53,023 nucleotides of DNA from Gemmatimonadota bacterium (GTDB lineage Bacteria > Gemmatimonadota > Gemmatimonadetes > Gemmatimonadales > Gemmatimonadaceae), in NCBI GenBank assembly GCA_016874035.1, contig VGVM01000012.1, positions 1-53,023 of the forward strand, given 5' to 3'. The translations under genes and the position numbers were made by a program. Shown here piece by piece: positions 39,732-44,007 of the stretch; within the stretch, counting starts at the first letter, position 1, and the number at the start of each line of letters is the position of its first letter. The notes below the pieces were generated by a model that was not told the DNA's origin, searched no databases, and saw only the letters and a program-made list of their open reading frames with translations.

Positions 39732-41531
39732 GTGTCTCCTGAAACACTCACCGCGCCCGGGGCCGTGTCCACGCTGACCGCCCGCGAGAAGCGCGACCTG
39801 CAGAAGGCGCAACTCCGCCCCCTCGCCAACCGCCGCCCCGAGCTCTACGAGGAAGACGAATACTCGTCGTCCGACTACGAGCGCATGATGGACCTCTACA
39901 ATGGCACGCTGGCCGCCATTGAAGAGGGCGAAATCGTCAAGGCGCGCGTCCTCGACATCCGCGACAACCTCGTCGTCCTCGACATCGGCTTCAAGTCCGA
40001 AGGCTCGATCCCGCTCGAAGAGTTCAAGGACATGCCGGAGCTCAAGGCCGGCGACGAGATCGACGTGCTCCTTGAGCACCTCGAGGACCAGGAAGGGTCG
40101 GTCGTCCTGTCGAAGAAGAAGGCCGACTTCATGCGCGTGTGGGAGAAGATCCGCATCGCGTATGAGAGCGACCAGCCGGTGGAAGGCGTGCTCACCAAGA
40201 AGATCAAGGGCGGCGTCGTCGTGGACCTCATGGGCGTGGACGCGTTCCTCCCGGGTTCGCAGATCGCGCTCCGCCGTGTGCCGAACATCGACGATCTCCT
40301 CGGCCAGAAGTACCAGTTCAAGATCATCAAGCTCAACAAGCGCCGCCGCAACATCGTCGTGTCGCGCCGGGTGATCCTGGAGACCGAGCGCGCCGGCAAG
40401 CGCGAGAAGCTCATGAAGGAGCTCCAGAAGGACCAGGTGCGGAAGGGCGTCGTCAAGAACATCACCGACTTCGGTGCATTCATTGACCTCGGCGGCGTGG
40501 ACGGACTCCTCCACATCACCGACATGTCCTGGGGCCGCATCCAGCACCCGACCGAGATGGTCCAGATCGGGCTCGAGCTGGAGATCAAGGTCCTCGACAT
40601 CGACTGGGAGCGCGAGCGCATCTCGCTCGGCCTCAAGCAGCTCCAGAGCTATCCGTGGAAGGACGTCGCGGCAAAGTATCCGGTCGGCACGCGCGTCTCG
40701 GGCAAGGTGGTCTCGATCACCAACTACGGCGCGTTCATCGAGATCGAGCCGGGCATCGAAGGCCTCGTGCACATCAGCGAAATGAGCTGGACGCGCAACG
40801 TGCGCCACCCGTCGAAGATCGTCTCGATCGGCGAGGCGATCGAAGCCGTCGTGCTCAAGGTGGACCAGACCGAGGAGAAGATCTCGCTCGGCATGAAGCA
40901 GACGGAGCAGGATCCGTGGATGGTGCTCCCGACCAAGTACCCGGTCGGCACGCGCCTCTCGGGCAAGGTCCGCAACCTCACGTCGTTCGGCGCCTTCGTC
41001 GAGATCGAACCGGGCATTGACGGCCTGATCCACATCTCCGACATGAGCTGGACCAAGCGCGTGCAGCACCCGTCCGAAGTCGTGAAGAAGGGCGACGACG
41101 TGAACGTCGTCATCCTCAACATTGACGCCGACAACAAGCGCATCTCGCTCGGCCTCAAGCAGGCCGCCGAGGATCCGTGGCTCCGCATCGGCGAGTCCTA
41201 CCCGGTGGGTACGGAACTCCCGGGTGTGGTCGCCCGCTTGATGGAGCAGGGCGTGGTGGTGGACATCGGAAACGACATCGAGGGCTTTGTGCCGCTCTCG
41301 CACCTGTCGGAGTTGGGCAATGTCGCGAGCCCCGCGGACGTCGCGTGGGAGAAGATGTCGATGAACGTGCGCGTGCTCGAGGTGGATCCCATTCACCGCC
41401 GGATCGTCCTCGGCGTGGTGAGTATCCCCGCGGGTCAGGAGCGCCCGGCCGAGCCGTCGAAGATCCACTCGGAAGACGAACCGCTGCCGCCGGTGGACAT
41501 GTCGGCGGTGGACATGGACGACGACGAGTAG
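39732..41531 (+). CDS. rpsA: 30S ribosomal protein S1 (six S1 domains)
   Basis: A 599-residue protein with six OB-fold S1 repeats. The third to fifth are most canonical (VKNITDFGAFIDLGGVDGLL, VSITNYGAFIEIEPGIEGLV, VRNLTSFGAFVEIEPGIDGL); the first, second and sixth are more diverged. It binds mRNA on the 30S subunit and helps initiate on structured or SD-poor messages, common in this window. I prefer GTG 39732 to ATG 39642 because the latter adjoins the promoter -10. An acidic tail (VDMSAVDMDDDE) ends the protein, followed by a terminator. Confidence 0.92.
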   Translation: MSPETLTAPGAVSTLTAREKRDLQKAQLRPLANRRPELYEEDEYSSSDYERMMDLYNGTLAAIEEGEIVKARVLDIRDNLVVLDIGFKSEGSIPLEEFKDMPELKAGDEIDVLLEHLEDQEGSVVLSKKKADFMRVWEKIRIAYESDQPVEGVLTKKIKGGVVVDLMGVDAFLPGSQIALRRVPNIDDLLGQKYQFKIIKLNKRRRNIVVSRRVILETERAGKREKLMKELQKDQVRKGVVKNITDFGAFIDLGGVDGLLHITDMSWGRIQHPTEMVQIGLELEIKVLDIDWERERISLGLKQLQSYPWKDVAAKYPVGTRVSGKVVSITNYGAFIEIEPGIEGLVHISEMSWTRNVRHPSKIVSIGEAIEAVVLKVDQTEEKISLGMKQTEQDPWMVLPTKYPVGTRLSGKVRNLTSFGAFVEIEPGIDGLIHISDMSWTKRVQHPSEVVKKGDDVNVVILNIDADNKRISLGLKQAAEDPWLRIGESYPVGTELPGVVARLMEQGVVVDIGNDIEGFVPLSHLSELGNVASPADVAWEKMSMNVRVLEVDPIHRRIVLGVVSIPAGQERPAEPSKIHSEDEPLPPVDMSAVDMDDDE

Positions 41532-41565
41532 GCATCGCTTGGCGAGATCCGGCCGCACGGTCGGC

Positions 41566-41606
41566 AGACGACCCTCAGGTCTTGGCCTGGGGGTCGTCTT
41601 GCTTTT
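41566..41606 (+). terminator. Intrinsic terminator of rpsA
   Basis: AGACGACCCTCAG (41566-41578) pairs with CTGGGGGTCGTCT (41587-41599) across 13 positions including one G-U pair, with an eight-base loop. A T-rich run (to 41606) follows. It lies 35 bases after the rpsA stop and separates rpsA from the tyrosine operon leader. Confidence 0.85.
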
Positions 41607-41670
41607 GCCACGCGATCGGTCGCACCACCGCCTGCGAAAGGTCGGCGCCGGGCTCAGCTTACCGCTCCTG

Positions 41671-41745
41671 ATGCGCGCACCAAACTCCTCGATCCGGTAT
41701 TACTACGCCGTCGGCCACAACACGGGCCGCTCGGTGGAGTTGTAG
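41671..41745 (+). CDS. Tyrosine-rich leader peptide of the aro/tyr operon
   Basis: A 24-codon ORF (ATG 41671, TAG 41743-41745) reading [15 protein letters not shown]..., with three consecutive tyrosine codons TAT-TAC-TAC at 41698-41706. It precedes an intrinsic terminator and the genes for DAHP synthase, chorismate mutase and prephenate dehydrogenase, the route to tyrosine. This is the layout of a transcription-attenuation leader peptide. Its Shine-Dalgarno is weak, the one weakness of the assignment. Confidence 0.75.
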
Positions 41746-41806
41746 CGCGTAGTACGACGTCAGCGTTGTGCGAGCCCGTGGAAAACTCCACGGGCTTTTT
41801 CTTTTT
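41701..41806 (+). promoter_or_regulatory. Tyrosine attenuator: alternative RNA pairings and terminator
   Basis: Three pairings can be drawn. (a) TACTACGC over the Tyr codons (41701-41708) with GCGTAGTA (41747-41754). (b) Antiterminator CACGGGC (41721-41727) with GCCCGTG (41774-41780). (c) Terminator AGCCCGTGGA (41773-41782) with TCCACGGGCT (41787-41796), loop AAAC, then TTTTTCTTTTT (41796-41806). (b) and (c) exclude each other. A ribosome stalled at the Tyr codons would leave 41721-41727 free, giving (b) and readthrough. A ribosome reaching the TAG would cover it, giving (c) and termination. Confidence 0.75.
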
Positions 41807-41822
41807 CCCTCACGGCATTCCC

Positions 41823-42869
41823 ATGATCATTGTCACTAAGTCCGGCACGACCGATGAAGCCCTCGACGCAATTCGCGAAGCCGTCGAGCGTACGGGCCTC
41901 GCGACCCACCTGTCGCGCGGCGAGCAGCGCACCATTATCGGTTGCATCGGGGACGAGCGCCTCCTGAACGCCGCGTCGCTTGGCGCGCTGCCAGGCGTCG
42001 AGAGCGTGATTCCGATCCTCAAGCCGTACCGGCAGGTGTCGAAGGGCTTTCGCGCGACGCACACCGTGGTGGAAGTCGGGGGATCCGAGCGCGCGCGATT
42101 CGGCGATTCCACTGTGGTCGTGGCCGCGGGCCCGCGCTCGGTGGAAGGCCGAGAGATGCTGCTCCGTACGGCGCGCAGCACACGGGACGGCGGCGCTGCC
42201 GTCTTGCGCGGCGGTGCCTTCAAGCCGCGCTCGTCACCCTATGCGTTCCAGGGCCTTGGCGTGGAAGCGCTTGAGTTCCTGGCTGAGGCGCGCGCGGAGA
42301 CGGGGCTGCCGGTGGTGACCGAAGTCATGGACACGCGACAGGTGGAGACGGTCGCGGAGTATGCCGACATGCTGCAGGTCGGTGCGCGCAACATGCAGAA
42401 CTACCCGTTGCTGAGCGCCGTCGGTGAGGTCCGCAGGCCCGTCCTGCTCAAACGCGGGCTCTCGGCCACGATCGAGGAACTGCTCCTTGCCGCCGAGTAC
42501 ATCGTCGCGCAGGGGAACGACCAGGTCGTGCTCTGTGAACGGGGCATTCGCACGTTCGAGCGCGCCACGCGCAATACGTTTGACGTGGCCGCGGTCCCCG
42601 TGCTGAAGCGCGAGACGCACCTGCCGGTGATCGTGGATCCGTCGCATGCCGGGGGCAGGGCCGACCTCGTCGCGCCGTTGGCGTTCGCGGCCATCGCAGC
42701 CGGCGCCGACGGCCTGATTGTCGAGGTGCACCCGGCGCCCGCGTCCGCGCGGTCCGACGGCGATCAATCACTAGACTTCGAGGCGTTCGGGACGTTGATG
42801 GCACGACTCGCCCCGTTCGCGGGCGCGGCCGGCCGTACGATGGGAACACTCCAGGAGGTGCCCGCGTGA
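41823..42869 (+). CDS. aroF: 3-deoxy-7-phosphoheptulonate synthase (DAHP synthase, type I-beta)
   Basis: A 348-residue enzyme condensing PEP and erythrose-4-phosphate, the first shikimate step. The N-terminal ferredoxin-like regulatory domain (about 1-70; [31 protein letters not shown]) precedes the barrel. Barrel motifs include [48 protein letters not shown] and VDPSHAGGR. In Thermotoga this extra domain gives tyrosine/phenylalanine inhibition, so feedback is likely. ATG 41823 is 16 bases past the attenuator's T-run. Confidence 0.94.
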
Positions 42870-43171
42870 CTACTCGACGGCTCGCTGGTCGGCACGCCGA
42901 TCGGCTCGCGCGGCTGCGCGCGCGCATCGAGCGCACGGACGACCAGATCGTGGCGCTGCTCGCGCGCCGGGCCGCGATCGCGGCGCGAATCGGCGCGGCG
43001 AAAGCGGCCGCGGGTGCGGCCATTCACGATCCGGCGCGCGAGGCCCAGGTCGTGCGGCGCGCCGGCAGTCGTGCCCGCGAGGCCGGCCTGCCGGCCGAGG
43101 ACGTGCGCGCGCTGTTTTGGCGGATCATCGGCGTATGTCGTGCCGCACAGCGAAGGCCCGCGAAGCCATGA
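42866..43171 (+). CDS. Chorismate mutase (AroQ type)
   Basis: A 101-residue all-helical protein with the AroQ pattern [30 protein letters not shown], then [11 protein letters not shown]. Arg and Lys residues expected to hold chorismate are present. It converts chorismate to prephenate for the next gene. GTG 42866 overlaps the DAHP synthase stop, and the end overlaps tyrA by four bases. The class is diverse in sequence, so identity rests on the helix-1 motif and the operon. Confidence 0.82.
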
Positions 43172-44007
43172 AGATTGCCGTCATCGGCCTCGGGTTGATC
43201 GGCGGCTCGTTGGCGCGGGACTTTCGGGCGGCGGGGCACACCGTCGTCGCGTTCGACCGCCGCGCAGCGTCGCTGCGGGCGGCGCGGCGCGCGCGGGTGA
43301 TCGCCGGGACGCTGCCGCGGTCGCTTGCCGGAGTCGAGTCCTGCGATGCCTGCGTGCTTGCGCTCCCGGTTGACGCGATTGAACGGACGCTCGGTTCGGC
43401 GAGGCAACGGCTCCGGCTGGTCCCGCTGGTCATGGACGCGGGCAGCACGAAGCGCGGCGTCATGCGCGCCGCGCGCGATGCGGGCTTGCGCGCGAACTTC
43501 GTCGGGGCGCATCCCATGGCGGGTGACCACGTGTCGGGGTGGCCGGCTTCGCGCAGCGCCTTGTTTGCGGGAAAGACAGTGTACCTCACGACGCATCGTG
43601 AACTCCGGCTTCCGTCGCTGCGGCGCGCCAAGTCCCTCTGGCGTTCCGTTGGCGCTCGTGTGCAGGTCTGTGACGCCGACGCGCACGACGCGCTGCTCGC
43701 GGGCGTCAGTCACGTGCCTCAGGTTGCCGCCGTGGCGCTCGCGATGCTGCTCGCCGATTCGGGAATCCGCCGGAGTACGCTGGGGCGGGGTGGCCGCGAC
43801 ATGACGCGACTGGCCGCGTCCAGCGCGGGTGTCTGGACGCCGATCCTGTTGTCGAACCGCGATCGCGTCGCCATCGGCGTTCGCCGGCTCGTCCGGGCAC
43901 TGCGGCAGGTCGAGGACCGCGTCACGGCGGGCGACGCCCCCGCGCTCAACCGCCTGCTTCGCCGCACCAATCGCTGGGCGAACGCAAGGGGCTCCGCCAG
44001 CTCGTGA
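43168..44007 (+). CDS. tyrA: Prephenate dehydrogenase
   Basis: A 279-residue dehydrogenase making 4-hydroxyphenylpyruvate from prephenate. The Rossmann motif is IAVIGLGLIGGSLARDF. The catalytic-region histidine lies in GAHPMAGDHVSGW, and SHVPQVAAVALA and GGRDMTRLAASS follow. ATG 43168 overlaps the mutase stop (ATGA). It ends the attenuator-controlled operon, which fits a tyrosine-responsive leader. No ACT domain is visible. Confidence 0.9.
   Translation: MKIAVIGLGLIGGSLARDFRAAGHTVVAFDRRAASLRAARRARVIAGTLPRSLAGVESCDACVLALPVDAIERTLGSARQRLRLVPLVMDAGSTKRGVMRAARDAGLRANFVGAHPMAGDHVSGWPASRSALFAGKTVYLTTHRELRLPSLRRAKSLWRSVGARVQVCDADAHDALLAGVSHVPQVAAVALAMLLADSGIRRSTLGRGGRDMTRLAASSAGVWTPILLSNRDRVAIGVRRLVRALRQVEDRVTAGDAPALNRLLRRTNRWANARGSASS

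Follow-up and report, generated by a model that had tools for sequence, protein, structure and literature searches.

A putative tyrosine-codon attenuator upstream of aroF-aroQ-tyrA in Gemmatimonadota

What controls the tyrosine-branch operon aroF-aroQ-tyrA of a Gemmatimonadota bacterium, and does the short open reading frame (ORF) that precedes it, with its three consecutive tyrosine codons, take part in this control? The question is raised by a 53,023-nt stretch of DNA, referred to here as the window, from contig VGVM01000012.1 of a Gemmatimonadota MAG (GCA_016874035.1), in which a first-pass annotation had proposed a tyrosine-codon attenuator. From the sequence, we consider it highly likely that the region carries a ribosome-mediated leader-peptide attenuator of aroF-aroQ-tyrA that senses charged tRNA-Tyr. 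It appears to work like the classical tryptophan attenuator, sensing tyrosine instead.

Leader, terminator and genes of the window

The first-pass annotation placed genes for DAHP synthase, chorismate mutase and prephenate dehydrogenase behind the leader, and profile matches agree with each assignment: aroF (DAHP synthase, 41823-42869; NF006421, 468 bits), aroQ (chorismate mutase type II, 42866-43171; CM_2 domain) and tyrA (prephenate dehydrogenase, 43168-44007; PDH_N/PDH_C domains). All three lie on the + strand with open and complete reading frames, and they overlap by 4 nt at both gene joins. Upstream of the attenuator and on the same strand is rpsA, which has a strong terminator at 41566-41599, directly 5' of the attenuator. 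Downstream of tyrA, five other loci (L035, L038, L041, L059 and L072) have genes that resemble those for the ATPase and the permease of an ABC transporter.

The leader ORF consists of 24 codons on the + strand (41671-41745), from the ATG at 41671 to the TAG at 41743-41745, and contains the run Tyr-Tyr-Tyr (TAT TAC TAC, 41698-41706), all as previously annotated and read directly here. Tyrosine makes up 1.7% of the residues encoded by the neighbouring genes, which gives an expectation of about 1e-4 for YYY in an ORF of 24 amino acids; among the 121 ATG-initiated ORFs of 15-45 amino acids in the window, the leader ORF alone contains it. Downstream on the same strand, the perfect 10-bp terminator and T-run of the annotation are likewise found, with a 5' arm AGCCCGTGGA (segment 3, 41773-41782), an AAAC loop, a 3' arm TCCACGGGCT (segment 4, 41787-41796) and a T-rich tract TTTTCTTTTT read directly at 41797-41806. 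Both arms are supported by the terminator fold and by stem covariation in relatives. The hairpin has a z-score of -3.8 and the RNA fold from the leader ATG to the T-run one of -5.9; in each case 0 of 200 shuffled sequences folded as well.

The terminator 5' arm is also complementary to a stretch within the leader. The candidate antiterminator arm CACGGGC (segment 2, 41721-41727, + strand) pairs with GCCCGTG at 41774-41780 and lies 15-21 nt past the last Tyr codon, in agreement with the coordinates of the competing 7-bp pairing annotated earlier. In a single-sequence test this pairing lies within chance (P of about 0.065), and support for it comes from the covariation in relatives.

Aromatic-codon leaders across the phylum

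The nearest named relatives of the window are Gemmatimonadetes MAGs. Fetching aroF homologues yielded 133 distinct Gemmatimonadota loci. At 99 of these, aroF is preceded by a short ORF in which Tyr, Phe or Trp codons are clustered, the counterpart of the leader ORF in the window; the leader at each locus was taken as the most aromatic ORF, a choice biased towards aromatic clusters with no preference for Tyr over Phe or Trp. The stop codon of the leader mostly lies 70-180 nt upstream of aroF in the relatives, and a terminator is present after 85 of the 95 leaders scanned. The nearest relatives, L032, L033 and L034, have the leaders MSTLYASYYYYAVGRHTGRTAGARRG, MNTRSYSYYYSAAGRHTGRTAGALRT and MNSRYASYYRYYHAAGRYTGRSAGALRS, with the similar Tyr clusters YYYY, YYY and YYRYY, respectively; in these three and in the window, Tyr is the sole aromatic residue of the cluster. 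The check for conserved Tyr codons that the first-pass annotation had proposed came out in its favour, with one correction: the relatives as a whole are not restricted to Tyr, and their leaders carry Tyr, Phe or Trp codons.

The codons used differ with the genes that follow. Before the 59 aroF-aroQ-tyrA operons the mean cluster share of Tyr/Phe/Trp is 0.74/0.24/0.02, and YYY occurs in 32 of the 59 leaders. The corresponding shares are 0.33/0.61/0.06 for six aroF-pheA operons, which occupy three places on the aroF tree, and 0.53/0.28/0.20 for the 33 other aroF loci, mostly a lone aroF with argH on the opposite strand, where Trp is found in 24 of the 33 leaders. Permuting the labels of leader codons against operon type reproduced the association in 0-1 of 20000 trials, with operon types clustered on the aroF tree. 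A phylogenetic sign test of the same association was not significant and was underpowered, with two independent pairs on supported branches. Because there are just these two pairs, the link is read as a pattern only, in which the choice of leader codons tends to match the operon: Tyr with aroQ-tyrA, Phe with pheA, and a mix of Tyr, Phe and Trp with a lone aroF.

Outside aroF, a pheA-like gene in L126/L260 (L260 319-620, G029:C4) is preceded by the leader MNAAARRAFFFSFSLPHPGENGGA, together with a TTGAC promoter and a terminator. The downstream gene reads like a chorismate mutase-prephenate dehydratase, and the leader, with its FFF run, is by its sequence a predicted Phe attenuator of identical design. 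With the exception of L126/L260, the trpE and pheA genes of the family are mostly without a leader peptide; in the genome of the window, reading the DNA upstream of trpE, pheA and a second DAHP synthase gene revealed no leader peptide. The pheA of that genome (L234 1180-1260), which has no leader peptide, lies beside a tRNA-like gene on the opposite strand.

Competing pairings and the proposed mechanism

Across the relatives, an arm in the leader is complementary to the terminator 5' arm. The commonest versions of the two arms are CACGGGCC with GGCCCGTG and CGGGAGCC with GGCTCCCG, and less common pairs include CGCGGGCC/GGCCCGCG and CGAGGGCC/GGCCCTCG. In an alignment of 53 distinct rows, selected by complementarity in a 21-nt window, a choice that favours pairing, 89% of the cells of the leader arm and the terminator 5' arm are paired, with 65 double changes vs 28 in shuffled alignments (0/500), and slid registers are all far lower. 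For the terminator stem, 99% of cells are paired, with covariation and loss on register shift as for the leader arm. Permutation controls in which arms were swapped between loci, one of them repeating the identical search, give values far lower than those observed: arms matched within a locus exceed arms permuted between loci (0/20000), and at 76 of 87 loci at least 7 of 8 positions pair, vs a permuted maximum of 61. The comparison with relatives that the first-pass annotation had recommended thus recovered both the aromatic leader and covarying arms.

The position of the arm is also conserved. Its distance from the last aromatic codon is 11 nt in 47 of 87 loci and 10-17 nt in 79 of 87; in the window it is 14 nt. 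At this spacing the arm would lie immediately downstream of the stretch covered by a ribosome that has stalled at these codons. When folding starts at the edge of such a ribosome, at least 6 antiterminator pairs form at 80 of 85 loci, and 10 bp of leader arm with terminator arm form in the window; when it starts downstream of the stop codon, the terminator forms at 83 of 85. In the window, the full-length fold still favours the terminator even when it begins at 41716, so antitermination would have to win before the terminator 3' arm is made.

From these features we infer that the leader is translated, that ribosomes stall on it and that the operon responds to tyrosine, as follows. When tRNA-Tyr is charged, the ribosome would pass the three Tyr codons, and segment 1, the candidate protector arm GCCGTCGGCC (41707-41716, + strand), could then mask the antiterminator arm at 41721-41727 by pairing with it. 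With this arm masked, the terminator at 41773-41796 would fold and RNA polymerase would stop near 41806. With uncharged tRNA-Tyr, in contrast, the ribosome is predicted to stall on the Tyr codons and cover segment 1, leaving free the antiterminator arm that begins just past its leading edge; this arm would pair with the terminator 5' arm and allow transcription into the tyrosine genes.

The first-pass annotation described the tyrosine-replete state differently: there, the antiterminator arm is covered once a ribosome has reached the stop codon. Partial cover is compatible with the distances, but full cover is not: the arm ends about 14 nt upstream of the stop codon in the window, and a median of 21 nt upstream in the relatives, so that a ribosome positioned there would overlap the arm with its rear edge by a few bases at most. 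Since cover would be just partial, pairing of segments 1 and 2 seems the more likely basis of this step. In the window, GCCGTCGGCC is complementary to GGGCCGC and pairs in the fold with GGCCG, beside and inside the antiterminator arm. In the relatives, the first 10 nt downstream of the aromatic cluster pair with the arm at -8.45 vs -7.64 kcal/mol in permuted combinations (0/300), a small effect, and the arm is paired in the free leader at 55 of 87 loci.

Leader start, alternative readings and known systems

The leaders of the relatives share a promoter pattern close to the start codon. TTGAC occurs near -36 from the leader ATG at 82 of 99 loci vs a 1% background, and in most relatives a TAnnnT-like hexamer ends 6-7 nt before the ATG (TTGAC-N17-TAnnnT). 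With accepted -35 variants the count rises to 95 of 99, and the leader of the window is among the four without. A Shine-Dalgarno-like site precedes 5 of the 99 leaders vs 59 of the 99 aroF genes. Because the promoter lies so close to the ATG and hardly any leader has a Shine-Dalgarno site, the leaders of the relatives are probably leaderless. Such genes seem to be common in Gemmatimonadota, since the promoter pattern before ATG is enriched in 21 genomes (4-32 occurrences per genome vs 0-4 for the reversed pattern), and many of those inspected mark the start of an ordinary long ORF; TTGAC-N17-TAnnnT is found 5-8 nt before the ATG in L243, L244, L245 and others. Before the leader of the window no recognisable -35 element was found, nor any promoter at 41500-41900, and TACCGC at 41660-41665 on the + strand (TACCGT in several relatives) may be a weak -10 element.

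The lack of a recognisable promoter in the window is what suggests that its attenuator may be a decayed or inactive copy, functional in the relatives, with aroF expressed by other means; the -35 variant kept before 95 of 99 leaders speaks for the same. We think this improbable, as the leader frame, Tyr run, antiterminator arm and terminator are all intact, the region from ATG to T-run folds with the z-score of -5.9 given above, and the reading frames of aroF, aroQ and tyrA are unbroken and complete. A leader that senses aromatic amino acids as a class, or the rate of translation, with the Tyr run as one state of a drifting cluster, is an unlikely reading that draws on the free mixing of Tyr, Phe and Trp codons in the relatives and on aroR of Corynebacterium glutamicum, which holds Phe-Tyr-Phe yet is reported to lack a response to Tyr (PMC11802643). 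It is opposed by the restriction of the cluster aromatics to Tyr in the window and L032-L034, and by the operon of the window being the tyrosine branch. The attenuator of the window is, on this sequence evidence, probably Tyr-specific.

That the hairpin could instead simply end the transcript of rpsA, accompanied by a chance ORF, is conceivable from the position of rpsA upstream on the same strand, but a separate terminator for rpsA lies at 41566-41599, and conservation and covariation of the leader and arms extend through the phylum, which leaves this reading with hardly any probability. In some Firmicutes, tyrosine genes are under T-box control, and a T-box or another tRNA- or ligand-binding riboswitch would be the corresponding explanation here. 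What is conserved instead is a leader ORF with its start, stop and codon spacing, and we hold a riboswitch to be exceedingly improbable. Two tRNAs are the only Rfam families in the window, with no T-box match at the gathering threshold.

Leader peptides that regulate aromatic synthesis have precedents of several kinds. The E. coli trpL and pheL leaders, which are led by Shine-Dalgarno sites, follow the logic proposed for the window, in which a stalled ribosome sets the antiterminator against the terminator. The aroR transcript of C. glutamicum is leaderless, as the leaders of the relatives here appear to be. TrpL and pheL differ from the window in having Trp or Phe codons and in controlling other operons (PMC11802643). 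The aroR leader peptide, with Phe-Tyr-Phe, precedes aroF (Neshat et al. 2014, cited in PMC11802643; PMC4046766) and its reported response is to Phe and not to Tyr (PMC11802643). It comes from an actinobacterium; the window has a pure Tyr run and a tyrosine-branch operon. The likeness is one of position and design only: in both, a leader peptide with aromatic codons stands ahead of a gene for DAHP synthase. In Acholeplasma, the uORFC-13-1 motif upstream of aroF likewise combines a predicted leader ORF with an intrinsic terminator, but it has Phe codon(s) and a ribosome-binding site and is known from Acholeplasma and unnamed environmental sequences only (PMC8632094).

Leader-peptide attenuators are described mainly from Proteobacteria and Actinobacteria, with some from Firmicutes (PMC2965389). 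Among the openly accessible papers searched, none links Gemmatimonadota to an attenuator with a leader peptide, and none treats leader-peptide attenuation together with tyrosine codons. The rarity that the first-pass annotation claimed for a Tyr-codon attenuator is tempered by the Tyr within the aroR codons, although aroR reportedly responds to Phe (PMC11802643). The balance stands about even on whether leaderless aroF attenuators extend across Gemmatimonadota, their codons re-tuned several times to the following gene, with the window as the first described purely tyrosine-sensing form.

A phylum-wide set with a Tyr-only form would widen both the organisms and the amino acids known for such sensing. 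With codons that seem matched to operon content, the set would also provide a natural series for studying how attenuator specificity changes, and the apparent leaderless start offers an easy way to test how leaders of this kind are translated. Three records titled Gammaproteobacteria (L048, L101 and L110) also contain a Gemmatimonadota-like aroF; these MAGs are probably mislabelled.
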